From Nitrosopumilus zosterae (GTDB lineage Archaea; Thermoproteota; Nitrososphaeria; Nitrososphaerales; Nitrosopumilaceae): a stretch of DNA of 64,000 nt. The first letter of the stretch is position 1, and every line of letters starts with the position of its first letter. Location of the stretch: assembly GCF_025998175.1 (NCBI RefSeq), contig NZ_AP026695.1, positions 496,001-560,000 on the forward strand, written 5' to 3'. Position numbers and translations under genes: made by a program. Of the stretch, positions 3,788 to 18,936 are shown one piece after another. Under the pieces are notes generated by a model. The model had not been told where the DNA came from, searched no databases, and saw only the letters and a list, made by a program, of their open reading frames with translations.

Positions 3788-3904
3788 TCATTCCAGGGGA
3801 AACTCTGATCCGCAGTCTGGACATTTCCCTCTGATACCTTTGTATCCTTTATGATAATATTGGATAATTTTTCCATTACATACAAAACAGATTATTTGAG
3901 ACAA
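3788..3904 (-). CDS. zinc-ribbon microprotein (38 residues, TTG start)
   Basis: Read from a TTG at 3904 it contains CFVC and, after KGIRGK, CPDCGSEF, a compact CxxC...CxxC zinc ribbon. No ATG occurs in frame. It begins 11 nt after the stop of the membrane microprotein gene at 3916-4050, so the two may be cotranscribed. It converges with the FilR1-type regulator. The start is uncertain; the zinc ribbon itself is clear. Confidence 0.5.
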   Translation of the reverse strand: MSQIICFVCNGKIIQYYHKGYKGIRGKCPDCGSEFPLE

Positions 3905-3915
3905 AACAGAAAACC

Positions 3916-4050
3916 CTACAATAATGCAACCATCAAAATTATTGCAGTAATTGCAATTACATGAAACATGTAAAATGCTTTTTTATGTCTAGGTATTTTG
4001 TAAAAGCCTTGTTTTTTCTTTTGTTTAATTTCCTGAATCAAGTTATTCAT
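3916..4050 (-). CDS. single-span membrane microprotein (44 residues)
   Basis: Starts with a basic, Lys-rich N-terminus (IQEIKQKKKQGF), followed by PRHKKAFYMFHV and one hydrophobic helix (IAITAIILMVALL) that ends at the stop codon. The topology is a short cytoplasmic head with one C-terminal membrane anchor. Sits directly before the 38-residue zinc ribbon. No family recognised. Confidence 0.5.
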   Translation of the reverse strand: MNNLIQEIKQKKKQGFYKIPRHKKAFYMFHVIAITAIILMVALL

Positions 4051-4160
4051 ACTGTATAATGTGTGAATCGCGATGATATGTTCAATTCAACAAATATTGT
4101 GATAATTAAGCTAGACTTGATACTTTTGTTAATAATTGATTGTTGCTTACTGTATGTATT

Positions 4161-4256
4161 ATGAGCAGTTTCAAAAAATGCCTTCACTGCGGAAGAGAAT
4201 TTATTAGTAGATTTGAAAATATATGTTCGACAAAATGTGCAAAAGAGATCTCGTAG
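4161..4256 (+). CDS. zinc-ribbon microprotein (31 residues)
   Basis: A 31-residue frame with the pattern K-CLHCGREF-x8-CSTKC, i.e. CxxCGxEF followed by CSxxC. The same pattern occurs in the minus-strand microprotein at 17705-17794 (CIVCGKEF ... CSTEC), which supports a real family of treble-clef-like mini zinc fingers. Function unknown. Confidence 0.5.
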   Translation: MSSFKKCLHCGREFISRFENICSTKCAKEIS

Positions 4257-4364
4257 ACTGAACAATAATACGAATATCAATGAATTGAGCCGAAAATTCC
4301 TCATTTTATAATCTCAAAACGAACTAACTTTTAAGACTCAGAAATGAATTGAAAGTCTTGTAAT

Positions 4365-6110
4365 ATGTCACAAAAAACTTTTAGTATAAATCGTAAACTA
4401 GTGTTTTTTGTAATAATAGTTTCTGTGGTTGCAATTTTTGCTACCTCTTATCTGAGCTTTAATTCTGCTGAAAAAATCCTTAAAGAAAATACACAAAATT
4501 TACTTATTGGAGAAGCATCGTTGAGAGGTGAATCTGTGGAAAATATATTGGAAGAAAGAAAAAAAGACATACAGGTTTTAGCACAGAATCCTGAATTACA
4601 TCAACTTCTTCAAACGTACGATGAAAATAATTCATCTCTTCTAAATGTTCAAAGACAATCATTTTTAAAAATAATCAATGAATATCAAATCACTATAGGT
4701 TATTCCATTAATTTAGAGGATATAAAAATTACAAACAAAGAAGGAACTCTACTTTTTTCATTAATAGATTTGAAATCATCAAATGTTTCTGATATTTTTG
4801 AATCAAGAAATTCTGATGCTGTAACAACCCCTAGTGTTGAATTTAAGATTCTAGACAATAATACGAGAAAATTAATTGTAATCCACCCAATTTTTGAACA
4901 AAACTCGAAAAATATTTTGGGTTTGTTAATTGCAACAATACGTACCACTGACATAGATGAAATATTACTAAACAGAAGTGGACTTGGAAATACAGGGGAA
5001 GTATATCTGGTAAACAAAAACCATACTCTTATTTCAGAATCACGATTTATGGAGAATATTGCATTTAATCAAATGGTAAATACTCTTCCTGTAACGCAAT
5101 GTTTTGAAAATAATGCCGATGTACATGGTGATACCTATTTTGACTATAGAGGAGAATCTATTTTTGGTGCTTCATACTGTTCTCCAAATTCAGGCTTTGT
5201 TTTAATTGCAGAAATTGATGAATCTGAAACATTTGGGCCTGTTACCGCACTTCAAAAAGAAATTTTGATTGTAGGAATAATTGTCACATCAATAATAGGA
5301 ATAATTGCATTTGTTCTGGGAAATTTGATCTCAAGACCACTAGTAAAATTGATCAATGCAGTTAACCAGGTGTCTGATGGTAACTTTGAAGTCCGTACAA
5401 ATATTCGAACTAAAGATGAAATTGGGCTCTTATCTCTGGCATTTGACTCTATGACAAAAAAGATGCAAGAGGCGCTAATTTCAATAAAGCAAAGAGATGA
5501 TGTCATAAAACAACAGGAAGAAGAGTTGTTGAAATTTTCAGATTCTGATAATAGTTATTGTGTGGGTTTTGTAGATATTGTAAATTCTACCAAAATAACA
5601 TCATCATTATCAGACTCTGATACGGATACATTTTACAGCATATTTCTTAATTCAATTGCGTCTGTCATCACAAAATATGATGGATTGGTCGTAAAAAACA
5701 TTGGAGATGCGTTATTGTTTTATTTTCCAAGAACAAACCAAACTGAAGATTTGAATGCCTTCAAAAAAGTTCTTGATTGCTGTATTGCGATTGTAGATGA
5801 GCATATACAAATTAATCAAAAAATGCTCAAAAACAAATTACCGAAAACAGACTATAGGATTAGCATCACATATGGATCAGTTAGAATTGCTAAAGTGTTT
5901 ACATCATCAGTAGAAGATATTTTTGGAAGTACAGTAAACAAATGCTCTAAAATCAACAGATTGGCTACAACAAATGGTGTTGTCATAGGTAAAAGTTTGT
6001 ATGATTTGGTTGCATCTTTTAGTAATGATTTTGATTTTAAAAAAATTGAATCAAAAGAAATGAAAGACAAATATGGATATGAAGCAGTATATTCTGTATC
6101 AAAACATTGA
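4365..6110 (+). CDS. membrane sensor class III nucleotidyl cyclase (Cache-HAMP-cyclase)
   Basis: 581 residues. TM helix at about 10-30, an extracellular double-Cache-like sensor (about 35-290), second TM at about 297-320, HAMP at about 320-375, a short coiled coil (KQRDDVIKQQEEELLKF) and a class III cyclase homology domain (about 395-581). Metal-binding aspartates are in GFVDIVNST and NIGDALLFY. Lys before NIGD and Asp in EDIFG match the ATP-selecting pair. In VNKCSKI the transition-state Asn is kept but the usual Arg is Lys. It probably converts an external signal into cyclic nucleotide, or acts as a nucleotide-binding receptor if inactive. Confidence 0.85.
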   Translation: MSQKTFSINRKLVFFVIIVSVVAIFATSYLSFNSAEKILKENTQNLLIGEASLRGESVENILEERKKDIQVLAQNPELHQLLQTYDENNSSLLNVQRQSFLKIINEYQITIGYSINLEDIKITNKEGTLLFSLIDLKSSNVSDIFESRNSDAVTTPSVEFKILDNNTRKLIVIHPIFEQNSKNILGLLIATIRTTDIDEILLNRSGLGNTGEVYLVNKNHTLISESRFMENIAFNQMVNTLPVTQCFENNADVHGDTYFDYRGESIFGASYCSPNSGFVLIAEIDESETFGPVTALQKEILIVGIIVTSIIGIIAFVLGNLISRPLVKLINAVNQVSDGNFEVRTNIRTKDEIGLLSLAFDSMTKKMQEALISIKQRDDVIKQQEEELLKFSDSDNSYCVGFVDIVNSTKITSSLSDSDTDTFYSIFLNSIASVITKYDGLVVKNIGDALLFYFPRTNQTEDLNAFKKVLDCCIAIVDEHIQINQKMLKNKLPKTDYRISITYGSVRIAKVFTSSVEDIFGSTVNKCSKINRLATTNGVVIGKSLYDLVASFSNDFDFKKIESKEMKDKYGYEAVYSVSKH

Positions 6111-6319
6111 TTGTGTGTATTTAACAGATTATAATTATTAATGACGTATGATGGAATTTCAAGGATACATCGTCCTACATTTTATTCGGAAATAAAAAAA
6201 TTATTGCTATTCTAATATCCGTTCGCAACAAGATGTATGACTTCAAATGTTTTTCTAACTACATTTGTTTGCAACGTAAACTCCATATTTTTAAAATATT
6301 AAAAACAAATGCAACCATT

Positions 6320-6853
6320 ATGCCAATTGATGAGAGTTTCCCAGAAGGTATGGAACCTATTGGAAAAATAATGCATTCAGATGGTGAAAATTTTCATTGG
6401 TTTTGGGGGCCTGGTAAGTTAAAAGAAGCCTCAACACATTCTAAGACTGTCAAGGATTTTGCAAAACGGGGCGAAAAAATTGAACCTTTAGGAGTCAGCT
6501 GCACTATGGTTGCAGTTTACTGGGATTCATGCTATGCTGATGGAGCATGCATCGAGGCGTGCCCTGTACAGGTATTCCAATGGTACAGAACAGAAAAAGA
6601 TATTCCAGCTAAAAGTGTAATCGGTGAGACATTTGATGGGACAGGCGAGAATTCAGACAAAGAGGGAAGAAAAGACTACACAGACAAGTCTGATCCAATT
6701 AGAGAACATGACTGCATTTGGTGTATGATATGTGTGTCTGTTTGTCCCCCTCAGGCAATCAAGGTAGACCAATCAAACCATGAATTTCATGAAAAAGCTG
6801 CTGGTAGTTATCAGAAATTGGGTTCTGGTCAACCAAATCCACATGTCCATTAA
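6320..6853 (+). CDS. dicluster 7Fe-type ferredoxin resembling Sulfolobus ferredoxin
   Basis: Cytoplasmic one-electron carrier, probably serving 2-oxoacid oxidoreductases and similar enzymes. Cluster motif 1 is CYADGACIEACP, where Asp replaces the second Cys, the pattern of a 3Fe-4S or labile site. Motif 2 is CIWCMICVSVCP, a full 4Fe-4S site. The VFQWYRT stretch after motif 1 and the spacing match archaeal zinc/7Fe ferredoxins, with a long N-terminal extension containing His residues. The ATG at 6320 (MPIDESFPEG) is preferred; the frame extends 29 codons upstream, but that stretch is unlike the family. Confidence 0.88.
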   Translation: MPIDESFPEGMEPIGKIMHSDGENFHWFWGPGKLKEASTHSKTVKDFAKRGEKIEPLGVSCTMVAVYWDSCYADGACIEACPVQVFQWYRTEKDIPAKSVIGETFDGTGENSDKEGRKDYTDKSDPIREHDCIWCMICVSVCPPQAIKVDQSNHEFHEKAAGSYQKLGSGQPNPHVH

Positions 6854-6971
6854 TAAGAAAAAAATCTGTCCACTACACAAGGATGTAATTCTCATACATA
6901 CTGAAACACGCGAAGGACTAAAAGCAGATTATTGTTGGAAGTGTCAGAGAGTATTTGGAGAAAAGATATGA
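6843..6971 (+). CDS. zinc-binding microprotein downstream of ferredoxin (42 residues)
   Basis: Starts at ATG 6843, overlapping the ferredoxin end by 11 nt in another frame, so translation is probably coupled. The sequence has CPLH near the start and CWKC near the end, a possible CxxH/CxxC zinc site. Position suggests a role linked to the ferredoxin, but this is inference only. Confidence 0.5.
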   Translation: MSINKKKICPLHKDVILIHTETREGLKADYCWKCQRVFGEKI

Positions 6972-7269
6972 TTACTCTTTTATTTTTCATTTTATTTACT
7001 ATCGCAACAGGTTAAATTTTTGGTAATACTGGAATTTTTTGACATGCATTCAATATTTAATTAAAAAGAAAATTAAGATATGACATTTATTTGTAAATTA
7101 TTACTATTGTTCGCCAATTGTACTGTGATTTTATAAAATAATTTAATGTATCAATTGTAGGTGGAGTTGTGTGAATTAAAACATTGAAATTATTAAAAAT
7201 AAGAATATTTTTTACCTTTTTCATATTTTAACCCATATTAAAAGAAATTATTTTTTTATTTTACATGTA
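6972..7269. other. AT-rich gene-free stretch
   Basis: About 300 nt of very AT-rich sequence between the ferredoxin operon and the broken uspA gene. No frame with codon structure, no tRNA and no clear hairpin was seen. The only ordered signal is the near-palindrome at its end (7270-7282). Confidence 0.5.
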
Positions 7270-7282
7270 TTAACAATGTTAC
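7270..7282. promoter_or_regulatory. near copy of the TTAACAATGTTAA palindrome
   Basis: TTAACAATGTTAC matches 12 of 13 positions of the palindrome found exactly at 17635, 17844 and 18278. It ends 38 nt before the uspA start at 7321, the same placement as the exact copies, so it may be an operator of the same regulon. Confidence 0.45.
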
Positions 7283-7320
7283 ACAACCTATAATATCTAA
7301 AAATGTTCTTAATATAATAT

Positions 7321-7751
7321 ATGATTTTTACAAATATTCTAATTGCATACGACATGTCATCGTTTTCTAATCGAGCATTTAAAATAGCGTTAGAAATTGC
7401 AAAAACAAATGGTTCCAAAATAACTTTATTGACAATCATTCCAGGAGAATATTCTGCAATAATGGGTTATTCTAAAATCAATCCACAGACGATTCAAAAA
7501 CAAAAAAAATAGTGAGGCAACACACACATAAACTTGAAACCGTGGCTAAAAAATCAAATGTGCCAATATCTGTTAAAATTAAACAAGGCACCTCGATAGT
7601 AACGGAGATAATCAACATAGCAAAATCTTCGAGAACAGACCTTGTTGTATTGGGTTCTCATGGAAGAACAGGCGTAAAAAGAATGATTCTTGGGAGTGTT
7701 GCAAATGGCGTTGTACAAAAATCAAAATGCCCAGTGTTAATAGTGAAATAA
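7321..7751 (+). pseudogene. universal stress protein (UspA) interrupted by a frameshift
   Basis: The first frame (7321-7512) gives an N-terminal UspA half: FTNILIAYDMSSFSNRAF, then KITLLTIIPG. The second frame (7512-7751) gives the C-terminal half with [18 protein letters not shown] and [19 protein letters not shown]. The nucleotide-binding pattern G-x2-G-x9-G-S is intact. The break is at a run of eight A (7502-7509); adding one A would restore a single chain of about 143 residues. Either a pseudogene, transcriptional slippage or a sequencing error in the homopolymer. Confidence 0.75.
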
Positions 7752-7764
7752 ATTGGCAAAAGTA

Positions 7765-8115
7765 ATGATTAAAATTAAAAGAATTTATGAAGATTATTCA
7801 AAAACTGATGGGTATAGAATATTGGTGGATAGGCTGTGGCCTCGAGGAATTACAAAAGAGCGTGCCAAAATTGATTTATGGATAAAAGAAATCACTCCAA
7901 GCAACGATTTACGGAAATGGTATCACGATAACATAGAAAAAAGAGAGCAATTCCAGAAAAAATACCTTGTCGAAATTGAGAAAAATTCCGACTCGTTTAA
8001 TGAAATTAAAAAAATAATTAATGATAAAAAAACCGTTACTCTTCTTTCTGCATCAAAAGATCCTAAACCTATTCATGCTATCGTTTTACAAAAAACATTA
8101 ACATACAAATCGTAA
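7765..8115 (+). CDS. DUF488 family protein
   Basis: 116 residues from ATG 7765 (MIKIKRIYEDYS); a TTG at 7753 is a weaker alternative. Contains the hallmark RILVDRLWPRGITKE followed by DLWIKEITPSNDLRKWY and a terminal strand-helix with LLSASKDP. DUF488 proteins are small soluble alpha/beta proteins of unknown function, often near stress genes. It follows the broken uspA by 13 nt, suggesting a former or present operon. Confidence 0.88.
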   Translation: MIKIKRIYEDYSKTDGYRILVDRLWPRGITKERAKIDLWIKEITPSNDLRKWYHDNIEKREQFQKKYLVEIEKNSDSFNEIKKIINDKKTVTLLSASKDPKPIHAIVLQKTLTYKS

Positions 8116-8203
8116 TTTCATCTTTACTGTGATTTTTATCCCTTATTTAGCATCTGAATCACAGTAATATGGAATTAAAAAAAACTATTAATTAAAAACC
8201 AGT

Positions 8204-8653
8204 TCAGTTCTTTTTTGAATTTATGATTTTTTGATCGATAAAATCTACAAACTCATCTCTGAATTTTTGAGAATTATCATAAAACCAAGACTTGTGAAGA
8301 TCTCCTTCTATCTTGATTATGTTGTACCACGTACGTGGAATCTTTTTGTAACGATCATATACTGTTGCAACCATGTTAATTGACATAAATGCATACGATT
8401 CATATCCGTATAGTCTTGAACCATCAAAAGATTTTTTGTAGTTGTTTGTTTTATGCGGATCTCTGAAATCTGGATGGTCTACACCTACCTTCATTAATTG
8501 TGTGTATGTGTTGTCCAATGAACTGTAAAGGCGAACATCTTCTGATTTTTTTGCTGTATATATGGAAATAACAATAGCAGTTATAGAAATTATTAACGGA
8601 ACAAGTATTACAACAATATCTGGCGTGTTTTCAAGAAGCATATTTTCCATCAA
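8204..8653 (-). CDS. membrane-anchored protein of unknown function
   Basis: 149 residues: one N-terminal TM helix (about 12-32, VVILVPLIISITAIVISIY) and a mostly helical soluble part rich in Tyr and charged residues (DHPDFRDPHKTNNY, YDRYKKIPRTWYN, SQKFRDEFVDFI). The arrangement resembles DUF4760-type membrane-anchored helical proteins, but I cannot place it firmly. It lies 16 nt downstream of the flavodoxin gene on the same strand, so cotranscription is likely. Confidence 0.6.
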   Translation of the reverse strand: MMENMLLENTPDIVVILVPLIISITAIVISIYTAKKSEDVRLYSSLDNTYTQLMKVGVDHPDFRDPHKTNNYKKSFDGSRLYGYESYAFMSINMVATVYDRYKKIPRTWYNIIKIEGDLHKSWFYDNSQKFRDEFVDFIDQKIINSKKN

Positions 8654-8669
8654 TCAAAAATATCTATAA

Positions 8670-9194
8670 TTATAATCCCATTTCAGATTTTAGTTGAGTA
8701 CACCATAGTTTGACTCTTTCTTCAGTCTGATCTGATTCGCCGTCTTCATCAACAGGCAGCCCACAAAACTTTCCATCAATGATACTTTTTGAACCCGTGA
8801 AGGTGTATCCGTCTGTACTTACATATCCAACCATTTTTGCACCAGCTTTTTCAAAATACCTGTGCAACTCCTCCATTGCATCAACAAAATTATCTGCATA
8901 ACCTGCAGCGTCACCCGTGCCACATATTGCGACGGGTTTACCCCTAAGGTCTAAATTCCCAATTTTTTCTAACAGTTCATCCCAAGCAGTACCTGATCTA
9001 TTTTCCTCCTCACCAGTATTCCATGTAGGAATGGCACAGATGAGACCATCCATTTCTAGGAATTGACTTATGTCTCCTCTAACTTCAGAAACATCTTTGG
9101 GATCTGCAGATAAATCACCTAATTCATTTTTTATCTTGGCACATACCATTTCAGTCTTGCCAGTTTGTGAGCCAAAGTAAATTCCAATAGTCAT
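8670..9194 (-). CDS. fldA: long-chain flavodoxin
   Basis: Low-potential FMN electron carrier. The phosphate-binding loop FGSQTGKTE is at the N-terminus. PTWNTGEEENRSG is the 60s FMN loop, and GTGDAAGYADNFVDAM the 90s loop followed by the long-chain insertion (about 174 residues). Start taken at MTIGIYFG (9194) rather than MSYMTIG (9203), because a minus-strand TATA-like TGAATTAAATATC at 9214-9226 then sits at the usual distance for a leaderless transcript. Flavodoxin often replaces ferredoxin under iron limitation; a ferredoxin is also encoded at 6320. Confidence 0.88.
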   Translation of the reverse strand: MTIGIYFGSQTGKTEMVCAKIKNELGDLSADPKDVSEVRGDISQFLEMDGLICAIPTWNTGEEENRSGTAWDELLEKIGNLDLRGKPVAICGTGDAAGYADNFVDAMEELHRYFEKAGAKMVGYVSTDGYTFTGSKSIIDGKFCGLPVDEDGESDQTEERVKLWCTQLKSEMGL

Positions 9195-9351
9195 GTAACT
9201 CATCCTCTTTCATGATATTTAATTCAGATGTTTTTCAAAGAGAGTAAACTAAAAGACTGATTTTACCACTCTCATTCAATGTCTATTTTTTCATTTTCAG
9301 TGCTGATAAGCATGATGCTCCTTTAATTCATATAAAAAATATTGTAAATCA

Positions 9352-9570
9352 ATGAATAAAGATGAATTGGAATCAAAATGTAAGGGAAGTTCTCTAACTT
9401 CAGAAGACATACAACAAATATTTCAAAATCAAGAAGATGCTACAAAATATAGACAATTAAAAGAAAAAATGAAGCAAGTTGAAGATGAATCATATCTATT
9501 AGACCGATTAGATGCATGTGATACATCAGGAGCTGTTGAAGTTCTCAAAGAATTTTTATCTGACAAATAG
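9352..9570 (+). CDS. small helical protein, function unknown
   Basis: 72 hydrophilic residues, mostly predicted helix, with a charged middle (YRQLKEKMKQVEDES) and only two Cys. It precedes the hemerythrin-domain gene by 14 nt on the same strand, so the two probably form an operon. No family recognised. Confidence 0.55.
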   Translation: MNKDELESKCKGSSLTSEDIQQIFQNQEDATKYRQLKEKMKQVEDESYLLDRLDACDTSGAVEVLKEFLSDK

Positions 9571-9584
9571 TTTGGTGATACAAA

Positions 9585-10130
9585 ATGAGTGCAACTAATC
9601 AACTACGTACAGATCATGATCAGGTGAAACGTTTGGAAAAAATAGTCTTCAAATGCTCTGAGGAATTAAAAAAAGGTACAGATATTCCATTTTTGGATTT
9701 ATCTAAAATTATGATTGTAATTTCTGAGTTTATTGACACCATTCATCATTCTCGAGAAGAAGATTCCTATTTCCCATGTGTGTCAAATCATGACTCTCTA
9801 AAAGATGAGATTCATCGATTTCTAGTTGAGCATGAATTTGGAAGAAATGTCGCACGTTTAATATCCCGTCATCTAAAATTGTGGAAAGAAGGATCTGATG
9901 AAAGAGAACCTGTTTCAAGATATCTTAATGCATACGGTGTGTTTCTAAAAGATCATTTGCACAAAGAAAACAAATTTTTTGATACTGCTGAGGCTACTGT
10001 TCTGACAAAGGAAGAAGAGACTAACATGTACGAGGAATACAAATCAGTGTTTGCAATAGTAAAAAAAGTCGAAGATATGATTAAAGAAATTGACTATTTG
10101 GAATCTAGACCTTGGAATCTGTCAAAATAG
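9585..10130 (+). CDS. hemerythrin-like (HHE) cation-binding protein
   Basis: 181 residues forming a four-helix bundle with the usual metal ligands in order: LRTDHDQV in helix 1, IHHSREEDSYF in helix 2, FLVEHEFGR in helix 3 and LKDHLHKENKFF in helix 4. Such proteins bind a di-iron centre and sense or handle oxygen, nitric oxide or iron. Cytoplasmic, no signal peptide. In an ammonia oxidiser a role in NO or iron homeostasis is plausible but not shown. Confidence 0.85.
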   Translation: MSATNQLRTDHDQVKRLEKIVFKCSEELKKGTDIPFLDLSKIMIVISEFIDTIHHSREEDSYFPCVSNHDSLKDEIHRFLVEHEFGRNVARLISRHLKLWKEGSDEREPVSRYLNAYGVFLKDHLHKENKFFDTAEATVLTKEEETNMYEEYKSVFAIVKKVEDMIKEIDYLESRPWNLSK

Positions 10131-10388
10131 TTCAAACAATCTGAAATCCTGATGTTCTAATGTACAAATCCATCTAAAATTATGTTGAATGTGCCTATTT
10201 GACTGTCCTATTTAATTCAAAATACTTTTTCAATCAGGATGAAGTAAAAGATGATCCAAGTCATACTGCTAAAATGATGACGAATAGGATCTATTTTTCT
10301 AATTCGAGACTATTTTTATTCCTGAAATGATCTGCAAATCTAATTTGTTATATCTGAACTTTCATTAGTTAAAACATATTTTGAGTGA
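10131..10388. other. intergenic region with repeat block, no gene
   Basis: No coding frame seen. It holds one TATTTAATTCAAAATAC block (about 10209-10225) of the dispersed intergenic family, followed by CTTTTTCAAT. Confidence 0.35.
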
Positions 10389-10763
10389 TTATTTCAAACG
10401 CTTGTAAATTTCTTTAAACTCTGCTGATAGATTGTATGAAATATTCAATATGTGAGTTAACTGATTCATCGATGTCATATTATTTCCAACCTGCCTTAGA
10501 ATGGTCAGAGCTTTCTGTGGTGAAGTTGTAGATGGTTGCACTTTACCATTCCATGTTTTAAAAGAATTCTCTACATCTAAACAGAAATTCAAAATAAATT
10601 CCTTCCAGTTTGGCATTTCGCTTAATTTCTTTTTTCCAAGAAATACTTGTGACAATTCACGAAATTCATTTTTTCTATCCATGTATAGTAATTCTAACGA
10701 TTCATGAATTTTTTCTTCAGTGTATTGAGATGTATTGAGCATATACATTCCTTGGATACTCAT
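10389..10763 (-). CDS. helical protein of unknown function
   Basis: 124 residues, predicted almost entirely helical (TEEKIHESLELLYMDRKNEF; KALTILRQVGNNM; NLSAEFKEIYKRL). Its ATG overlaps the stop of the zinc-ribbon gene upstream (10760-11002) by 4 nt, so the pair is translated together. No recognised family; possibly an interaction partner of the zinc-ribbon protein. Confidence 0.55.
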   Translation of the reverse strand: MSIQGMYMLNTSQYTEEKIHESLELLYMDRKNEFRELSQVFLGKKKLSEMPNWKEFILNFCLDVENSFKTWNGKVQPSTTSPQKALTILRQVGNNMTSMNQLTHILNISYNLSAEFKEIYKRLK

Positions 10764-11002
10764 AACTCTACAACCTTTAAATCTTTGAGTAACTTGTTCT
10801 CTAAACTATACCTTTTCTTGTGATAAATTCTGTTTTTTGCCCTCACTCGTAATTTTGTGTTGCAACAAGAGCATCGAATTAGCTTTGTTTGAATAAATCT
10901 GGAACATGTAGTACACCATTTTAACCCATTTTGGTATTTCAAACCTCCTTCGAATCTTTTTGTTATAAAATTAATACAATATTCTTTACATCTTGGTGCC
11001 AA
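10760..11002 (-). CDS. zinc-ribbon protein, probably nucleic-acid binding
   Basis: 80 residues, strongly basic. It has an N-terminal RCKEYC pair, then WCTTC and CSCC, giving two Cys pairs for a zinc ribbon, and a Lys/Arg-rich tail (LRVRAKNRIYHKKR). The pattern is one I associate with thaumarchaeal small zinc-ribbon proteins. First gene of a two-gene operon with the 124-residue helical protein. Confidence 0.65.
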   Translation of the reverse strand: MAPRCKEYCINFITKRFEGGLKYQNGLKWCTTCSRFIQTKLIRCSCCNTKLRVRAKNRIYHKKRYSLENKLLKDLKVVEL

Positions 11003-11108
11003 TAGAAGAATAGATTATTTCTATTAGATAAGATCAGCGTATACTGTCGTTTGCAAATGACTGCAGAATAAACTTCTTAGTTAATATCATCATAGTAACA
11101 TTTCTTTT

Positions 11109-12308
11109 GTGGACAGAACTATTGTAATGCTTGTAGGAGTTATCTCTCTTGGAGTAACTCTTGGAATTTTTTTCCTAGATGCAGAATTACCTTTACAGTC
11201 CTTTGCAGATAAAAACTCTGTCCACAATTCCCCCATAACACGTACCTATACTGTGATTGCTGAGGATACGACACTTGAGATTGCACCTGGAACTAGAGTT
11301 GAAGCTTGGACTTACAATGGAACCATTCCTGGTCCAACATTGAGGGCAACTGAGGGTGATCGAGTAATTATTAATTTCATCAATAATGGAAAACTTCCAC
11401 ATACGATGCATTTTCACGGAGATCATAATGAAAAAAACGATGGAGTTTTCCAAGAAGTTCTTCCAGGTGAATCCTATACATATGATTTCACTGCAGAACC
11501 TGCAGGATTATTCATGTATCATTGTCATGTAATGCCTGTATCTGAACATATTAGAAATGGATTGTATGGTGCTTTCATTGTAGATCCAAAAGAAGGATTA
11601 GAGCCTGCTAGAGAATACGTTCTTGTAAAGGGTGAATATGATTTGGAAGACCAAGAGACTTGGACTCCTGATTATGTTTTCTTTAACGGATATGCTGATC
11701 AATACTGGAATAACCCATTACCTGTAAAGACTGGAGAAAAAGTAAGATTGTATTATGTTGACATGGGTGCAATTGCTGCATTTGGATTTCACATTCATGG
11801 AACAATATTTGATACTATAATATCTGGAATTTGGGAAAATGAACCTATCAAAACACAAACTTGGGAAGTAAGTCCCGGAAATGCAGCTATCTTCGAGGCA
11901 ACATGGAAAGAACCGGGAAGGTATCTTTTCCATTTGCATGGAGTTCCAGAAGAAAAGGGAACTATGGCTTACTTTGATGTAAGGGATGCTTCCTCTGATG
12001 CAGTCGACGGAGTAGATGTGGCAAGAACAAAATCTGTTGACATGTGGGAATGGCAAAAGCAGATTGCGATTAATTTACAACAACCAGATACGAATGGCAA
12101 AATTACAAAAACATCTGATTCATCACTTGATGATATTTTCGGAGAACCTGTGAATATCTGCTTTAAGATTAACCAGTATGCATTACCAAATACTGTAGTT
12201 ATGGATGATTCTGTATATCGAAAAGCCAAAGATTTACAATTCAAATTTACAAAATTGGATCAAAGTTTGATCAAAGACTTGGAATATACTGTGTTTATTC
12301 TATCATGA
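11109..12308 (+). CDS. two-domain multicopper oxidase fused to a C-terminal class III cyclase fragment
   Basis: Signal anchor at about 5-23, then cupredoxin domain 1 (about 45-160) with HTMHFHG (98-104) and MYHCHVMPVSEH, and domain 2 (about 190-292) with FHIHG and FHLHG. HxH/HCH/HxH pairs indicate a type 1 copper in domain 1 and a trinuclear site between domains, so a secreted two-domain laccase or nitrite-reductase-like oxidase. After about residue 336 the sequence changes to SLDDIFGEPVN ... KINQYALPNTVVMDDSVY ... YTVFIL, which aligns with the last 65 residues of the cyclase at 4365-6110 (VEDIFGSTVN ... KINRLATTNGVVIGKSLY). That piece lacks both metal aspartates and cannot be catalytic. A chimera left by recombination is likely. 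Confidence 0.85.
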   Translation: MDRTIVMLVGVISLGVTLGIFFLDAELPLQSFADKNSVHNSPITRTYTVIAEDTTLEIAPGTRVEAWTYNGTIPGPTLRATEGDRVIINFINNGKLPHTMHFHGDHNEKNDGVFQEVLPGESYTYDFTAEPAGLFMYHCHVMPVSEHIRNGLYGAFIVDPKEGLEPAREYVLVKGEYDLEDQETWTPDYVFFNGYADQYWNNPLPVKTGEKVRLYYVDMGAIAAFGFHIHGTIFDTIISGIWENEPIKTQTWEVSPGNAAIFEATWKEPGRYLFHLHGVPEEKGTMAYFDVRDASSDAVDGVDVARTKSVDMWEWQKQIAINLQQPDTNGKITKTSDSSLDDIFGEPVNICFKINQYALPNTVVMDDSVYRKAKDLQFKFTKLDQSLIKDLEYTVFILS

Positions 12309-12347
12309 TCTCCTATTTTTCTCAAATAACCCTCGTTTCAACGGTCT

Positions 12348-12413
12348 TATTTATTTCAAAACACCTTTCATGCTAGTCTATCGCTCATTCTATAATCATA
12401 TAACATGTAAAGA
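12348..12413. repeat. dispersed intergenic element, copy B
   Basis: Shares three blocks with copy A at 1847-1920: TATTTATTTCAAAACACC, TATCGCTCATTCTATA and TATAACATG followed by AAAGAA. Lies between the oxidase-cyclase chimera and the complete cyclase gene. Confidence 0.4.
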
Positions 12414-12503
12414 AGATTTCTTGTCTTTGAAATTCAATTAAAAGTGAAGAAACTGAAAAGATGCAAGTCTTATCTTGATATCTTCATCTAACAACTTAAA
12501 CTA

Positions 12504-13340
12504 GTGTGCATCACAAGTATCTTGTTGGAAAACAATGCAAAAGATATTGCAAAAATAGGAATTAAGAATTTACTGTCGCCAAAAACGCCCAGTATAGTTG
12601 ACATGTTACTGGGGCGCGGTACAGAAAAAGTTGTGGATTCTGAGACCTTGGTTGAAGAAATACAAGACAGGGTACACAAATCACTAAACCAGGAGTTTCT
12701 TTATTCTGCGGTAACCGAAGAATCAGAAATGTTTCTTAGAGAAAGAGTGTTGCAGAGTATGAATATGGCAGTTTTGTTTGTAGATTTGGTAGGGTCCACC
12801 TCCATGATCTTAAATTTACCGAAAGAAAAACTTGCTACTATTTTTACTACCTTTGCTCAAGAGATGGCCTATGTGATAAAACGCCATGATGGATTTGTAT
12901 TGAAATTTGTTGGTGATGCTGTGATTGGATATTTTGTTGCAGAAGAACTGTCTACATCTGTTGCAAGCAGAGCGGTTTCTTGTGCAGAATCAATGTTGAA
13001 AATTATCAAAGTTGGAATAAATCCAATTTTAAAAAGTAACAATCTTCCGGAATTAAAGATAAAGATCGGCATAGATTATGGCGAAAACACAATTGTACGA
13101 TATGGGGATGATTTGCAAGAGGCACACGTGGATATTTTGGGACCGTCTGTTAGCATGGCAGCTAAAATTCAAAATTTAGCCCAGTCTGATCAAATAATGG
13201 TTGGCGGTGACGTATATGCAAAACTTCATGGCTCTATTCAAGAATATTTTGTTAATTTAGATTTGGAAAAATCCAATTGGGATTACAAGTCTGCAAAAAC
13301 CAAAAAAGTTTATCCAGTATATGCCTATGTTGGAAAATAA
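12504..13340 (+). CDS. soluble class III adenylate/guanylate cyclase-like protein
   Basis: 278 residues, GTG start, no TM. The N-terminal ~90 residues are helical (KSLNQEFLYSAV ...), followed by the cyclase homology domain (about 92-278). Metal aspartates are in FVDLVGSTS and KFVGDAVIGYF; Lys before FVGD and Asp in VDILGPS fit ATP selection. In GPSVSMAAKI the transition-state Asn is Ser and the Arg is Lys, so activity may be low or altered. The stop codon is directly followed by the ATG of a membrane protein gene. Probably cytoplasmic cAMP synthesis or sensing. Confidence 0.8.
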   Translation: MCITSILLENNAKDIAKIGIKNLLSPKTPSIVDMLLGRGTEKVVDSETLVEEIQDRVHKSLNQEFLYSAVTEESEMFLRERVLQSMNMAVLFVDLVGSTSMILNLPKEKLATIFTTFAQEMAYVIKRHDGFVLKFVGDAVIGYFVAEELSTSVASRAVSCAESMLKIIKVGINPILKSNNLPELKIKIGIDYGENTIVRYGDDLQEAHVDILGPSVSMAAKIQNLAQSDQIMVGGDVYAKLHGSIQEYFVNLDLEKSNWDYKSAKTKKVYPVYAYVGK

Positions 13341-13727
13341 ATGATATTCCCGCTATTGTTTAAGAAAGGACTAAGTTTTGTCACGTTTACATTAATTCTG
13401 ATTTTTTTCTTTGGTTTAGTGAACATTGAGCATTCTGCTTTGGGAATTTCTAAACCCATGTTTGCAATTACTGAGCAAACAATAATGATATTTGATATTA
13501 TTTTCTGGGCGATAGTGTGCCTACTTACTGTCGAATTAGTAGTGGCATATCTTGAGATACGAAATGCTAAACATTTCGTAAAAAAATACTGGCTTGAAAT
13601 AATCATGCTTGTTCTGATGCCAATATTTGTAGGATTTAAAATACTAAAAATAACAATAAAAATCATAAAGCAAATCAAAATTATGAAGACAGGATTTAAA
13701 CTCTTTAAAAAAATAAAAAAATCCTAG
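13341..13727 (+). CDS. three-helix membrane protein coupled to the cyclase gene
   Basis: Starts on the base after the cyclase stop codon, so the two are almost certainly cotranslated. 128 residues with hydrophobic helices at about 11-28, 46-70 and 84-102, and a highly basic C-terminus (KITIKIIKQIKIMKTGFKLFKKIKK). Helices 2-3 with the charged loop YLEIRNAKHFVKKYW recall the start of a voltage-sensor-like module, but no pore sequence is present. Could anchor or regulate the cyclase. Confidence 0.6.
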   Translation: MIFPLLFKKGLSFVTFTLILIFFFGLVNIEHSALGISKPMFAITEQTIMIFDIIFWAIVCLLTVELVVAYLEIRNAKHFVKKYWLEIIMLVLMPIFVGFKILKITIKIIKQIKIMKTGFKLFKKIKKS

Positions 13728-13970
13728 AAATAACAAAGTGATTAGTACAATAATCGAACCTAAGCACACGAAAAAGAAACAGTATCTAGAAAATACCTAC
13801 GGGTTCATTTGGTAATTCTTTTAATTCAAAAACTTTTACCGCTGAAATTACAACATATGGCATACTCTATGAGAAATAATTTAAGTGATTTTTTCATTTA
13901 CAATGTTTGTCCAACAAAAATTCTATCAACATCTTAATAGTTTATTTACCAAGTTGTTTAAAAACAGATA

Positions 13971-14438
13971 ATGTACAAAACTATTCTCTTGCCTCATGCA
14001 GGAACTCCGGCAGGAGATGAGGCATTGAAGCATGCCATTTATGTGTCTGGAAAATCATCCCGGATTATTATTTTACATATTGTAGAAGCCGTACAGTATC
14101 CGCCCTCATTTGCGTTATCTTCATCCGAACGAAACAGTCTGCTAAAATCCATTGACGAGGTAAATGAAGAAATGAGACAAGACATGGAAAAAAAGATGGA
14201 AAAATACATTCAGCAATGCAAAGAGAATAACATCAAATCCAAAGTTCAAGTAGTTATTGGGGATGCATCTGAAATAATTTTGGATACTATTGAAAAAGAA
14301 AAAGTGGATCTAATTGTCATGTCAAAACGAAGAAAGCTCAAAGGGGTCAAAAAACTACTCTCATTAGGCAGTGTTTCAAGAAAGATTGTGGAAAATACAT
14401 CTTGTCCTATTTTATTAATCGATGTTGAGAATAAATGA
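13971..14438 (+). CDS. universal stress protein domain protein (UspA)
   Basis: 155 residues with the UspA fold: MYKTILLPHAGTPAGDEAL at the start, IIILHIVEAV strand, a coiled helix, GDASEIILDTIEKEKVDLIVMS and a final VENTSCPILLID. The nucleotide-binding G-x2-G is lost (KRRKLKG), so it probably does not bind ATP in the classical way. Its stop overlaps the start of the next uspA gene by 4 nt. Cytoplasmic, stress related by family. Confidence 0.9.
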   Translation: MYKTILLPHAGTPAGDEALKHAIYVSGKSSRIIILHIVEAVQYPPSFALSSSERNSLLKSIDEVNEEMRQDMEKKMEKYIQQCKENNIKSKVQVVIGDASEIILDTIEKEKVDLIVMSKRRKLKGVKKLLSLGSVSRKIVENTSCPILLIDVENK

Positions 14439-14869
14439 ATGCTCTTTTTGAACATATTTTAGTTCCGTATAATGGAAACTTAGATAGCGAAAAAGCATTT
14501 AGAAAAGCAATGTCTCTGGCAATATCTATTGGTGCAAAGATTACAATCCTTACTTGTTTGGAAGAACGACATACATTTGGATTTAAGACAAAAACAAGCA
14601 AACAAGAGTTTGAAAAAGAAAGTAAACTGGTTGAATTACAACATCAAAAATTAAAAAAATTGGCCAAAGAACACGATGTTTCTTGTGATTCTAAAATTGT
14701 CAAAAATGGATTAGCGTCCATTAAAATCCTTGAATTTGCCGATAAGCACAATGTAGGTTTGATAGTGATGACAAAAACAAAACTTGCTTCTCATTATGAA
14801 AAACAACATTATCATAGTACAGTTGAAAATGTTTTTAGAAATACATCTTGTCCAATTTTGATTCTCTAG
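14435..14869 (+). CDS. universal stress protein domain protein (UspA), second of a pair
   Basis: 144 residues. FEHILVPYNGNLDSEKAFRK begins the domain, ITILTCLEER is strand 2, NVGLIVMTKTK strand 4 and RNTSCPILIL the C-terminal strand. The loop that normally carries G-x2-G-x9-G-S is replaced by a His/Tyr-rich sequence (HYEKQHYHST), so nucleotide binding is doubtful. ATGA overlap with the preceding uspA suggests a heterodimer made from one transcript. Confidence 0.88.
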   Translation: MNALFEHILVPYNGNLDSEKAFRKAMSLAISIGAKITILTCLEERHTFGFKTKTSKQEFEKESKLVELQHQKLKKLAKEHDVSCDSKIVKNGLASIKILEFADKHNVGLIVMTKTKLASHYEKQHYHSTVENVFRNTSCPILIL

Positions 14870-14929
14870 TTCTGTCAAAACACCCAAGGTGAATATGTGG
14901 AAAATTATTGATGATTAAAGAATATGTCT

Positions 14930-15916
14930 TCAAACAAACAACTGAATCAAATAAGTGACCCCCATTCCCATCAATGCACTACCTGGGATTGTAATTATCC
15001 ATGAAAATACAATCTGCCTGCTGACTTTCCATCGTACCGCCCGTTTTCTACGTGCTGCTCCTGAACCCATAATTGTTCCAGTGATTGCATGTGTTGTACT
15101 GGCTGGAATTCCTAATACTGCAAAGATTGCCAGCATTAATCCTCCACTGGTCTCTGCTGCAAATCCTTGATATGGTTTGAGTTTTGTGATCTTCACACCT
15201 AAAGTTTTGATTACTTTGTATCCTCCAAAGAAAGTTCCAAGACCCATCGCTGTTGCAGCAGCCAAGATTACCCATAATGGCATCTCAAGTTCAGGAATCA
15301 TTCCTGCAGAAAATAGGATTAGCACAATGATTCCCATTGTTTTTTGTCCGTCATTGGCCCCGTGAGTTAAAGCAAACCATGCTGAAGAAACAATTTGTAA
15401 TTTGCCAAATGTTTTGTTTACTGGTCCGGGTTTGTAGCCTGCAAATACTGTGATAATCAATGTGGTAACTAAAAGACCGAAAATCATTCCACCAACAGGT
15501 GAAATGACAATTCCTGCAAAAATTTTAGTCAAACCGCCATAAACCAATTTTTCAAATCCTAATCCTGCAATACCTGCACCCATTATGCCTCCTACCAAAG
15601 AGTGGCTATTTGAAATTGGCAATCCGAAATAAGTGCAAAGAGTACTCCAACCAATTGCTCCTGCCAACCCTCCTATGATCATGTAAACTGTAATGTCATC
15701 AGGACTGACAATTCCTTTTGCAATGGTTGTTGCAACAGCCACTCCAAAAATAAAAGGTCCAATAAAATTCATTGCTGCCGACAATCCTACTGCATGAATT
15801 GGTTTTAGCACACGTGTTCCAATTACCGTGGCAACGGAATTTGCAGAATCGTTGAATCCATTAACAAAATCAAAGATTAATGCAACTATGATTGCACCAA
15901 TTGCTATTTCTATCAT
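14930..15916 (-). CDS. pitA: low-affinity inorganic phosphate transporter (PiT family)
   Basis: 328 residues, about ten TM helices. The duplicated PiT signatures are both visible: GFNDSANSVATVIGTR near the N-terminus and THGANDGQKTMG in the second half. Imports phosphate (or metal-phosphate) using an ion gradient. The gene follows the DUF47 gene by 9 nt, the usual Pit operon arrangement. Confidence 0.93.
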   Translation of the reverse strand: MIEIAIGAIIVALIFDFVNGFNDSANSVATVIGTRVLKPIHAVGLSAAMNFIGPFIFGVAVATTIAKGIVSPDDITVYMIIGGLAGAIGWSTLCTYFGLPISNSHSLVGGIMGAGIAGLGFEKLVYGGLTKIFAGIVISPVGGMIFGLLVTTLIITVFAGYKPGPVNKTFGKLQIVSSAWFALTHGANDGQKTMGIIVLILFSAGMIPELEMPLWVILAAATAMGLGTFFGGYKVIKTLGVKITKLKPYQGFAAETSGGLMLAIFAVLGIPASTTHAITGTIMGSGAARRKRAVRWKVSRQIVFSWIITIPGSALMGMGVTYLIQLFV

Positions 15917-15925
15917 TTGATCATC

Positions 15926-16555
15926 TCATGTGTATTTTAGGACAATATCTTCTATGACATCTGCAACATCTACACATCTGTCTGATGCAGTTTCCATTGT
16001 TTCGTAGATGTCCTTTAGTTTGATGATTTTGATTGCATCATTTGTTTCAAATAGCTCTTTGATGGCCTCTCTATACAAATCATCTACAGTATGCTCAATA
16101 TCACTGGTGTTTCTACAATGTTCAATCATGTCTTTTGGATTTTTTATGCGCTGTAGCTTTGAAATCATATACTCTACTTCTTTTGTGGCCTTTACAAGCT
16201 CATGAGCCATCTCTGCGGTATATGGTGGAGGGGTAGTTATTTGATAACTGTAAACTCTAGCTGCAATTCCATCCATGAAATCAATCACATCATCTATTTT
16301 AGATGCAATTCTTTGCATGTCTTCACGATCCAATGGTGTGATGAATGTCTTGTTTAGTTCCGAAAAAATGTCTCTTGTCAAAACATCTGCCTCTGTTTCT
16401 AATTGATGAATTTTTTTTGCTTGCTCTTTGTTACTTAGATCGTTGAATAAAACAACCACTGCTTCAGAGGTTTCAACAGCTTTTTTTGCTAAATCATCCA
16501 GTATCTTTAGGAGTTCTTTTTCATTGGATTTTATCCATGATAACCATTGGCCCAT
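15926..16555 (-). CDS. DUF47/PhoU-like Pit accessory protein
   Basis: 209 residues, all helical, with the DUF47 features: an N-terminal LAKKAVETSE helix, DREDMQRIASKIDDVIDFMDG (a PhoU-type D/E-x-D metal-binding motif) and a final ASDRCVDVADVIEDIVLKY. PhoU-like proteins regulate or assist phosphate uptake. First gene of the operon with the PiT permease. Cytoplasmic. Confidence 0.92.
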   Translation of the reverse strand: MGQWLSWIKSNEKELLKILDDLAKKAVETSEAVVVLFNDLSNKEQAKKIHQLETEADVLTRDIFSELNKTFITPLDREDMQRIASKIDDVIDFMDGIAARVYSYQITTPPPYTAEMAHELVKATKEVEYMISKLQRIKNPKDMIEHCRNTSDIEHTVDDLYREAIKELFETNDAIKIIKLKDIYETMETASDRCVDVADVIEDIVLKYT

Positions 16556-16722
16556 AAATTATCCCCGGAATTACGTAATTAAAAACTAGCCTATGATATC
16601 TATATAGAATATTGATCATATTGGGAATGCTCGTTTCACAGATCTCATTTAATTCAAATCATCTTTTCATACTAAATCTAAATTCAATTTGACAATCGGT
16701 AATTGAGATTTTCACAAAAATA

Positions 16723-16800
16723 TTACAATAGAATAATGCCAAACATTTGTACAAGAATTGCTATGATCGCAAATATGATGATTTTTACTCCTAATCCCAT
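16723..16800 (-). CDS. putative 25-residue membrane peptide
   Basis: The ATG at 16800 is preceded by the purine-rich GGGGGGATATTTC, a possible ribosome site. The peptide is one hydrophobic helix (MGLGVKIIIFAIIAILVQM ...) ending in the membrane. Too short to assign; the clean helix and the G-rich stretch ahead of the start are the only support. Could be chance. Confidence 0.35.
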   Translation of the reverse strand: MGLGVKIIIFAIIAILVQMFGIILL

Positions 16801-16862
16801 GAAATATCCCCCCTGATTTTATTATGTGAATTATTTTTAGTCAAATTCAAAATACCTCCACG

Positions 16863-17426
16863 TTAGTTTACCATCATGTGTCTATCGAGTATTTCGGTAC
16901 GTTGTTCCTGTTCATTGATTATGTTTAATGTCATACTGGATTCAATGTCATGTAATGCACGTATGGCTTTAGTAATGACATTTTCAAGTGTTTTGTTATC
17001 TGATGCTTGAATCTTACAAATTACATCATATAATCCAAAAACCACATCAGCTTCTTTTACCTCTGGAATGTGGCAGATGTTTTTCAGGATGGTGTACTCT
17101 TCTCCGTTCTTACAGTGAATTACAACATATGCTTGAGCTATATTTTGTCCCAATATTGCTCCCAGTAATTTTTCAGAAGTTTGAAACAATCCTTCAGATT
17201 CGGAACGTGTTAAAGTCAAAGTGGAATGAATTTTGGGCATTTTCCGAATAATACCTGTAACGACCTCTCGAATTTTCTTTTCTGATCCTAGTTCAATTTT
17301 TGCAACAATATCATAAAGGCCAAGTGTGCCATGAGCTTCTTTTATGCCCTCGATATTTTTCAGTGAGGAAATGACATCTATTTCTGAGCCCAAATCACAA
17401 TTCATTAAGATATATGCTTTAGCCAT
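16863..17426 (-). CDS. tandem Lrp/AsnC ligand-binding (RAM) domain protein
   Basis: 187 residues made of two RAM domains without any DNA-binding domain. Repeat 1 (about 1-80) has AYILMNCDLGSE and GLYDIVAKIELG; repeat 2 (about 98-180) has AYVVIHCKNGEE and GLYDVICKIQAS. RAM domains form dimers/octamers and bind amino acids or similar effectors. The gene starts 2 nt after the stop of the C2H2 finger gene (17429-17599), so both belong to one transcript. Confidence 0.85.
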   Translation of the reverse strand: MAKAYILMNCDLGSEIDVISSLKNIEGIKEAHGTLGLYDIVAKIELGSEKKIREVVTGIIRKMPKIHSTLTLTRSESEGLFQTSEKLLGAILGQNIAQAYVVIHCKNGEEYTILKNICHIPEVKEADVVFGLYDVICKIQASDNKTLENVITKAIRALHDIESSMTLNIINEQEQRTEILDRHMMVN

Positions 17427-17428
17427 AT

Positions 17429-17599
17429 TCAGTGATCTTTTGCACGTTTGGGTTTTGAATGAGCCTTTATCATGTGTTTTTTAGTCCTTTCTGGATCAGT
17501 GAACTCCATATCACAGATCTTACATTTGTTGGAAAATGTGGTTTCTCTTTTTAGTATGCTTTTTACCAAATTTTTGTTAAAGGATAATTTTGGTTTCAT
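17429..17599 (-). CDS. C2H2 zinc-finger microprotein (56 residues)
   Basis: Contains CKICDMEFTDPERTKKHMIKAH, split as C-x2-C-x12-H-x4-H, a classical C2H2 finger, flanked by Lys-rich segments (NLVKSILKRE; SKPKRAKDH). The high positive charge suggests DNA or RNA binding. A TTAACATTGTTAA palindrome lies 35 nt upstream of the ATG. Downstream is the tandem RAM protein in the same operon. The same finger spacing occurs in the protein at 18096-18245. Confidence 0.7.
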   Translation of the reverse strand: MKPKLSFNKNLVKSILKRETTFSNKCKICDMEFTDPERTKKHMIKAHSKPKRAKDH

Positions 17600-17634
17600 G
17601 CAAAAACTTGAAATTTGAGATTATAACGTGTTAC

Positions 17635-17647
17635 TTAACATTGTTAA
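17635..17647. promoter_or_regulatory. palindromic operator TTAACATTGTTAA, site 1
   Basis: A perfect odd palindrome (6-bp arms around one base) 35 nt upstream of the C2H2 gene on the minus strand. It is identical, allowing for strand, to sites 2 and 3. The position just upstream of a presumed TATA box fits activator or repressor binding. Confidence 0.6.
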
Positions 17648-17704
17648 TTCAATTCCTATGATGGATGTATTGATATTTCCCTGCTGAACTACCATCAATC
17701 CTTC

Positions 17705-17794
17705 TTAATGTTCTAATTGATCAGAACACTCTGTGGAGCAAACATCATCACACCAATGTTCAAATTCTTTTCCACACACAATACATGTTTTCAA
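17705..17794 (-). CDS. zinc-ribbon microprotein (29 residues, TTG start)
   Basis: Read from TTG 17794: LKTCIVCGKEF, then eight residues, then CSTECSDQ. The CxxCGxEF ... CSxxC pattern matches the plus-strand microprotein at 4161-4256. A TTAACAATGTTAA palindrome lies 49 nt upstream. No ATG is available because the frame is closed shortly upstream by TGA. Function unknown. Confidence 0.45.
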   Translation of the reverse strand: MKTCIVCGKEFEHWCDDVCSTECSDQLEH

Positions 17795-17843
17795 TAGGAC
17801 AATCTCACATCATTGTTTCCCGATTCAAGTATTTACAGAATAA

Positions 17844-17856
17844 TTAACAATGTTAA
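17844..17856. promoter_or_regulatory. palindromic operator TTAACAATGTTAA, site 2
   Basis: Exact copy of the 13-bp palindrome, 49 nt upstream of the TTG start of the zinc-ribbon microprotein at 17794 (minus strand), and 37 nt from the large inverted-repeat element at 17894. Confidence 0.6.
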
Positions 17857-17893
17857 GTGAATGATAAATACGCAAATACTGTTAATCTATTTG

Positions 17894-18000
17894 TGTAGAA
17901 GTCCCTATCGTAAAATGATGTGATTCCAAGTTAAAACCCGTGCTGTACTGCTACTCAATTTCTGCTTGAGACATACTAAAACATCATTTTGACTTCTACA
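17894..18000. repeat. 107-nt inverted-repeat element, possible structured RNA
   Basis: Left arm TGTAGAAGTC (17894-17903), 8 nt, AAAATGATGT (17912-17921); right arm ACATCATTTT (17981-17990) directly followed by GACTTCTACA (17991-18000). Both 10-bp pairs are perfect, so a 20-bp stem with an 8-nt one-sided bulge and a 59-nt terminal loop can form. It lies in a gene-free 301-nt stretch (17795-18095) within the zinc-finger cluster. A small RNA or a MITE-like relic are the main options; no target duplication is obvious. Confidence 0.55.
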
Positions 18001-18095
18001 TTTTAACCATTCATGTGAAATACATATTCAGTAATTTCTCTGATGTTTTATGTTGAAAACCATGAATTCTATGAAATGGAATTTTTAAATAATAA

Positions 18096-18245
18096 CTAGT
18101 TTCTAAATGTCCATTTTGATTCGTCATGCTTTTTTGCGAATTCGTCGGATGATACCTTATTGTGACTATTTTTGATGTGAAACATGTATACTTCCACTGG
18201 CCCAAATCTGTGTTTGCATAGAAGGCAAATTTTTCTAAACGACAT
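18096..18245 (-). CDS. C2H2 zinc-finger microprotein (49 residues)
   Basis: Starts MSFRKICLLCKHRFG and has HIKNSH, giving C-x2-C-x12-H-x4-H, exactly the spacing of the finger at 17429-17599. The C-terminus is charged (DEFAKKHDESKWTFR). Diverges from the cupredoxin gene at 18326, with a single TTAACAATGTTAA palindrome between them, 32 nt from this start. Likely nucleic-acid or protein binding. Confidence 0.65.
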   Translation of the reverse strand: MSFRKICLLCKHRFGPVEVYMFHIKNSHNKVSSDEFAKKHDESKWTFRN

Positions 18246-18277
18246 AAACTAATTCATTATTTCCTTTTAGTGGTTCC

Positions 18278-18290
18278 TTAACAATGTTAA
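18278..18290. promoter_or_regulatory. palindromic operator TTAACAATGTTAA, site 3, shared by divergent genes
   Basis: Exact copy of the 13-bp palindrome between the C2H2 gene (32 nt, minus strand) and the cupredoxin gene (35 nt, plus strand). On the plus side it is followed directly by ATTATTGTATTTATG, a possible TATA region, so a bound protein could control both genes. Confidence 0.65.
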
Positions 18291-18325
18291 TTATTGTATT
18301 TATGCAAGAAAATTATTTCTAAACA

Positions 18326-18814
18326 TTGAACAAGACAAAGAAAAAATTCTCCAAACTATCTAAAACAAACATAATTTCAGTTAGTGTCGTTGCGGGTGTT
18401 GTTATTTTGATAGGGGGAATTGCATTGAATTCGCTTAGTCCGGTCAATTACGATGGTTTTGTTTTTGCTCCTTCTACAAACGTATTCCTAAAGGCAGTAA
18501 AATCTCCTCAAGGCATCTACCATTACCAACTCACCAAAGGCGGTAAAGCACTCCAATCCTCCTCTGAGACGTCGCCTTCAATTATTATGTCCAAAGGAAA
18601 TCTTGTTCAGATTCACTTGATTAATGAGGAAAAGAACCAGCTTGACAATCCTTCCAAACACAATCTCAATATCGATGAGTTTAATGTACATATCAAAGAT
18701 CTTAGTTATTTTCAAAGTGAATCAGTCACATTTTTGGCAGATAAAACAGGTACTTTTGATTACTATTGCTCAATTCATCCTGGTATGAAAGGCACTATCA
18801 CAATTACTGAATAA
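18326..18814 (+). CDS. membrane-anchored cupredoxin (plastocyanin-like)
   Basis: 162 residues from TTG 18326: basic N-terminus, one TM/signal anchor (about 17-36), then a single cupredoxin domain on the outside. Type 1 copper ligands are a His in KHNLNIDEF (or the nearby VHIKD) and the C-terminal YYCSIHPGMKG loop (Cys, His, Met). Likely an electron carrier to or from multicopper oxidases or terminal oxidase. The palindrome upstream links it to the zinc-finger genes. Confidence 0.85.
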   Translation: MNKTKKKFSKLSKTNIISVSVVAGVVILIGGIALNSLSPVNYDGFVFAPSTNVFLKAVKSPQGIYHYQLTKGGKALQSSSETSPSIIMSKGNLVQIHLINEEKNQLDNPSKHNLNIDEFNVHIKDLSYFQSESVTFLADKTGTFDYYCSIHPGMKGTITITE

Positions 18815-18825
18815 ATTATTGAAAA

Positions 18826-18936
18826 ATGAAGAATTCTAGAAAATATCTTCTGTTTGTCTTATTTGCAGTATTGTGCTCAGGATCAATTTCACAGTTCTTA
18901 TTTAATTCAAATATTATCCAAGTTCATGAAATATGA
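18826..18936 (+). CDS. possible secreted microprotein (36 residues)
   Basis: A short frame starting MKNSRKYLLFVLFAVLCSG, i.e. basic start plus hydrophobic helix and a lipobox-like LCSG. It begins 11 nt after the cupredoxin stop and overlaps the start of the cyclophilin-like gene by 11 nt. A TATTTAATTCAAAT block runs through its 3' half, so it may instead be leader sequence of the next gene. Confidence 0.3.
   Translation: MKNSRKYLLFVLFAVLCSGSISQFLFNSNIIQVHEI

Follow-up and report, generated by a model that had tools for sequence, protein, structure and literature searches.

A multicopper oxidase gene of Nitrosopumilus zosterae with its cupredoxin domain replaced by the end of a class III cyclase

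The open reading frame at 11109–12308 (+) of the window (the whole 64,000-nt stretch analysed here, positions 496001–560000 of a single-contig Nitrosopumilus zosterae genome of 1,775,052 bp that is 99.95% complete) encodes a protein of 399 residues from a GTG start and represents a clear case of accidental gene fusion: in this marine ammonia oxidiser, the third copper domain of a secreted copper enzyme has given way to the 66 C-terminal residues of a signalling enzyme. The chimeric gene very probably arose through illegitimate recombination between the two copies of a 12-bp direct repeat, with a core that would remain functional and a tail that would be inert. The two parents, the join, its reading frame, the loss of the cupredoxin and the absence of the donor body are apparent from the sequence comparisons.

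The head of the chimera (residues 1–333; 11109..12107, +), delimited by Pfam matches, a check of the ligands and alignment with intact orthologues, consists of an N-terminal membrane segment followed by a two-domain multicopper oxidase core, in agreement with the first-pass annotation of this DNA. Both domains exceed the Pfam cut-offs, Cu-oxidase_3 (E 8e-26) at residues 54–162 of the 399-residue frame and Cu-oxidase_2 (E 3e-20) as the next domain. The candidate ligands were the 11 His and Cys positions that are invariant in alignment A2, which are expected, from the family, to bind copper, and all 11 are kept in the head (His98, His101, His103, His138, Cys139, His140, His147, His228, His230, His275 and His277). 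The product is expected, from its sequence, to be an exported, membrane-anchored oxidase. Its start is likely the GTG at 11109: the ATG start of the orthologues in G086 and G068, three codons upstream, reads ATT in the window (11100–11111), which leaves this GTG as the start of the chimera (G000 denotes the genome of the window, other G numbers related genomes and L numbers loci).

Intact orthologues comprise about 450 residues and are, over the head, 93% (G086) and 92% (G068) identical to the chimera. The similarity of these two proteins to the chimera stops at residues 339–342, with none beyond; past residue 342 the intact orthologues continue with a linker and then a type-1 copper cupredoxin domain (residues His401, Cys435, His438 and Met441 in the numbering of L039). 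An intact paralogue, 86–87% identical, is encoded in the same genome (1348286–1349302; G000:C1:1348286), and its residues 373–449 form a cupredoxin domain (PF13473, E 4e-10; PF00127, E 4e-9), which bears out the earlier remark that related oxidases carry further cupredoxin sequence at this place. No C-terminal type-1 copper domain was found in the chimera by Pfam or by alignment. The chimera thus shares with the intact three-domain oxidase of Nitrosopumilaceae the head, the membrane segment, the core copper ligands and a divergent 80-residue neighbour, whereas the end of the linker and the cupredoxin (His401/Cys435/His438/Met441) are missing and 66 cyclase residues are found instead. In another genome the orthologous oxidase is split by an internal TAG (L047, G175:C8), and the same oxidase is therefore also being lost elsewhere.

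The tail (residues 335–399 and the stop codon; 12111..12308, +) corresponds to the C-terminus of a dCache-HAMP-class III cyclase. Residues 342–395 gave a weak match to the end of the PF00211 Guanylate_cyc profile (positions 124–179 of 183, not the whole domain), and residues 301–399 searched alone reached E 0.0018 and 18.3 bits, below the cut-off of 21.9 bits. Because this match spans only the C-terminal third of the cyclase domain, both metal-binding aspartates are missing, as judged by position. The tail is 94%, 92% and 80% identical to the 66 C-terminal residues of the dCache-HAMP-cyclase of G068 (571 residues) and of its counterparts in G149 and G092, respectively, and on these values a chance resemblance to a cyclase was rejected. 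The cyclases of G000 itself are far more distant: identity is 43% (E 8.6e-7) to the cyclase at 4365–6110 and 38% to the 600-residue cyclase at G000 position 36955, and the downstream cyclase at 12504–13340 gave no match at E ≤ 1. The enzymes at 4365 and 12504 were accordingly discarded as donors and, judging from these identities, the tail descends from a third cyclase, the dCache-HAMP-class III enzyme of about 571 residues present in related Nitrosopumilus genomes (e.g. L040:7757–9472). What the chimera has in common with this cyclase are the 66 C-terminal residues and 53 bp of the 3' flank; the chimera lacks the sensor, the membrane part, the HAMP domain and the half of the cyclase domain that binds metal. 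The donor body was not found elsewhere in the genome of the window, where only the tail remains. The first-pass annotation had already noted a resemblance of the tail to the end of the cyclase at 4365–6110, the lack of both metal aspartates, a boundary at about residue 336 and a cyclase gene 195 nt downstream, all of which hold; its reservation that the tail might not hit cyclases at all is answered by the cyclase matches returned in the profile and sequence searches.

The two parents meet at the 12-bp sequence CAAAAACATCTG (12106..12117, +), which is identical in both and in frame (KTS), placing the join at residues 334–337, within the linker that precedes the cupredoxin. The exact 12 bp are present in the window, in the oxidases of G086 and G068 and in the cyclases of G068, G149 and G092. 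At the DNA level, homology to the G068 oxidase extends up to 12117 and homology to the G068 cyclase locus runs from 12106 to 12361 (89% identity), passing the stop codon (12306–12308) and continuing through the 3' flank of the donor cyclase (12309..12361, +), which includes an att-like sequence. The 12 bp are the longest exact run common to the 3' parts of the G068 oxidase and cyclase genes, and codon-order shuffles of those parts yielded runs of at least 12 in 20 out of 300 trials. Microhomology-mediated recombination would be expected to leave its breakpoint at just such a longest common run. As the breakpoint falls in the linker, the copper core stays intact and the cupredoxin is lost in its entirety.

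In the proposed route, an intact oxidase gene (two-domain core, linker and cupredoxin) would have lain near a dCache-HAMP-cyclase gene of the same orientation, and recombination, most simply a deletion, between the 12 bp in the oxidase linker and the same 12 bp in the cyclase, 66 codons before its stop, would have joined both in frame. The product would keep the complete two-domain copper core, lose the fused cupredoxin and end, on the outside of the cell, in 66 residues left over from the cyclase. Recombination had been suggested before as the origin of this gene, and that part stands; it had been placed between the cyclase copies of the window, and this does not hold, the join being one of an oxidase with a third cyclase at a common 12 bp. 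That the route was a deletion is what we infer. In both G149 and G092 the oxidase, a second-type oxidase (MCO2) and the cyclase follow in that order and all point the same way, with other genes between them, and a deletion from the oxidase linker to the end of the cyclase would produce the arrangement seen in the window and remove MCO2 together with the cyclase body. Neither MCO2 nor a second copy of the donor cyclase was found in the genome of the window, as expected if both were deleted. The gene order of G149 and G092 fits a deletion, but their oxidases do not have the exact 12 bp, and a stretch of 58 bp at 10325–10382, 81% identical to the DNA that immediately follows the stop codon of G149's donor-type cyclase (L043 1254–1311), is not accounted for by a single deletion. 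Gene order varies among the relatives: in G068, both of whose genes carry the exact 12 bp, the cyclase precedes the oxidase, and starting from there either a tandem duplication or the excision of a circle would be needed in place of a plain deletion. A tandem duplication, or a circle excised and re-inserted, at the 12-bp repeat with later loss of the parent copies is a possibility to be taken seriously, although we do not favour it. The ancestral order would then be cyclase, 80-residue gene and oxidase, as in G068, which holds both parents with the exact repeat, the cyclase immediately preceding the oxidase and being followed by the same 53-bp 3' flank as the chimera; an att-like core stands after the cyclase in G068 and after the chimera in the window, and the small-gene/haemerythrin block together with the oxidase resembles here a circular permutation of the order in the relatives. 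This route takes more steps than one deletion, and the duplicates of the parents are no longer present.

An assembly artefact linking two distant places would equally leave the fusion in a single genome, but it is extremely unlikely: the genome is one nearly complete contig, the donor body occurs nowhere else in it, and the sequence continues through the cyclase 3' flank into sequence that is collinear with G149 (93% identity). Assembler overlaps are, besides, far longer than 12 bp. The fusion was not found in any other of the genomes searched (95 of the genus and 200 drawn from the family, in collections with one genome per species), and a fusion common to a clade was rejected on these grounds. 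A scan of genome contigs, from which the genome of the window itself was possibly left out, gave seven homologues, with the fusion in none of them. A viral origin was also rejected, no relative being found in one viral scan.

The chimera lies in a 17-kb insertion (1860..18911) that is absent from G086, G068, G074 and G059. In these four relatives the flank ending at 1859 meets directly the flank starting at 18899, with an overlap of 13 bp, TATTTAATTCAAA, and the stretch is therefore regarded as inserted. This 13-bp att-like core is found at the left end (1847..1859, +) and its counterpart at the right end (18899..18911, +), with internal cores at 10209..10221 (+), to the left of the chimera segment and with the weakest extended match, at 12348..12360 (+; TATTTATTTCAAA), 40 bp past the chimera stop codon, and at 16646..16658 (+). 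The five copies split the insertion into four segments, the one at 10222–12347 holding the chimera and two small genes; segments of this kind are bounded by TTTCANNGNTCTTATTTAATTCAAA. The extended 25-base core matched only three of these core sites in the genome of the window and only the corresponding site in G149, while in G068 it occurs directly after the donor cyclase and in one weaker match elsewhere; the reversed pattern had no match in these three genomes. G149 carries the right-hand part, the collinear segment from 12348 (its identity is given above), and not 1920–12347. A similarity of about 70 bp between 1850–1919 and 12348–12417 was considered as a recent insertion duplication and dropped, the common part being the att-like core and related flanks. 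The insertion adjoins a DUF2024 gene, and the site is differently filled in G149, G046 and G092.

Oxidase, haemerythrin and universal stress protein genes are among those of the insertion. No integrase or casposase gene was found among the Pfam-examined genes of 1860–18911, small ORFs being only partly covered, and the whole looks like a tandem accretion of small elements without an integrase of their own. Cryptic integrated mobile elements of Thaumarchaeota have been described with multicopper oxidase, haemerythrin and UspA genes as cargo (PMC6563490); the insertion resembles them in the type of cargo, the short att repeats and the empty sites in relatives, but differs in that no integrase was detected among the genes examined and in being an array of several att-bounded segments. 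Within the segment of the chimera, a 124-residue gene of no confident Pfam family (10389..10763, −) is also present upstream of the oxidase in G149, G134 and G146. The 80-residue gene (10760..11002, −), divergent from the oxidase, is kept beside nearly all mapped loci of intact homologues, and the intergenic region is conserved with G086 and G068. At 7321–7751 a universal stress protein is split between two ORFs that are out of frame with each other (Usp profile positions 2–58 and 73–141), probably a frameshifted gene, and for a 187-residue protein at 16863–17426 Pfam reported two Lrp/AsnC ligand-binding domains and none that binds DNA. A recurring, reshuffled Nitrosopumilus neighbourhood is seen at L043, L045, L048 and L077, comprising two oxidases, the dCache-HAMP-cyclase, a 72-residue protein, a haemerythrin and a 268-residue HTH regulator.

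By analogy with a known structure, the core without a fused cupredoxin is plausible as a folded unit. Residues 41–328 of the chimera align across the whole two-domain core of the copper-containing nitrite reductase of PDB entry 9cck (E 9e-90), which contains chains of 409 and 309 residues, the shorter ones suggesting that such a core can stand without a third part; 9cck belongs to a different subfamily, closer to MCO2, and has no cyclase tail. The core would still work, exchanging electrons with separate cupredoxins, and those encoded near the chimera (18326–18814 and 19712–20803) could stand in for the lost domain. On the window's branch the head has accumulated 15 synonymous and 5 non-synonymous changes, which points to constraint, although this ratio may mostly reflect the time before the fusion. 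The tail is probably inert, since it comprises only the last third of the domain, has no metal aspartates, is expected outside the cell and has a structure prediction of low confidence (mean pLDDT of about 34–62 per ten-residue block, from a shallow alignment; 52 and 61, also low, for the intact and fused proteins as a whole).

A decaying pseudogene, in which the oxidase lost its function with the cupredoxin and is only not yet broken, is rather unlikely. The intact paralogue that remains, the internal stop of the G175 orthologue and the ATT that replaces the relatives' start codon would agree with decay, but the frame is open, all the ligands are kept, the upstream region is conserved and the changes in the head are mostly silent, with the reservation already made on their age. 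Co-option of the tail for a role outside the cell (contact, stability or signalling) is much less probable still: the frame does run uninterrupted to where the cyclase itself stops and, of the five changes in the tail on this branch, 3 are synonymous and 2 non-synonymous, but five changes are too few to demonstrate selection (so small a share of amino-acid changes has a probability of about 8% under neutrality, by hand calculation), ATP is not expected outside, the aspartates are absent, the predicted structure is of low confidence and the fusion occurs in one genome only. We likewise give little credence to the most far-reaching reading, a working new protein in which a cupredoxin-free oxidase uses separate cupredoxins and selection keeps the remnant, born in an att-bounded array that has no integrase of its own and in which small cargo genes are shuffled and fused.

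The accidental fusion described here is an unusually legible birth of an archaeal gene, as both parents survive in relatives and the join can be placed within 12 bp, an unrelated fragment having neatly taken the place of one domain. The case amounts to a natural experiment on whether the copper enzymes of these abundant ammonia oxidisers need their fused cupredoxin, and the array of att-bounded segments in which the gene lies may be the more general finding.
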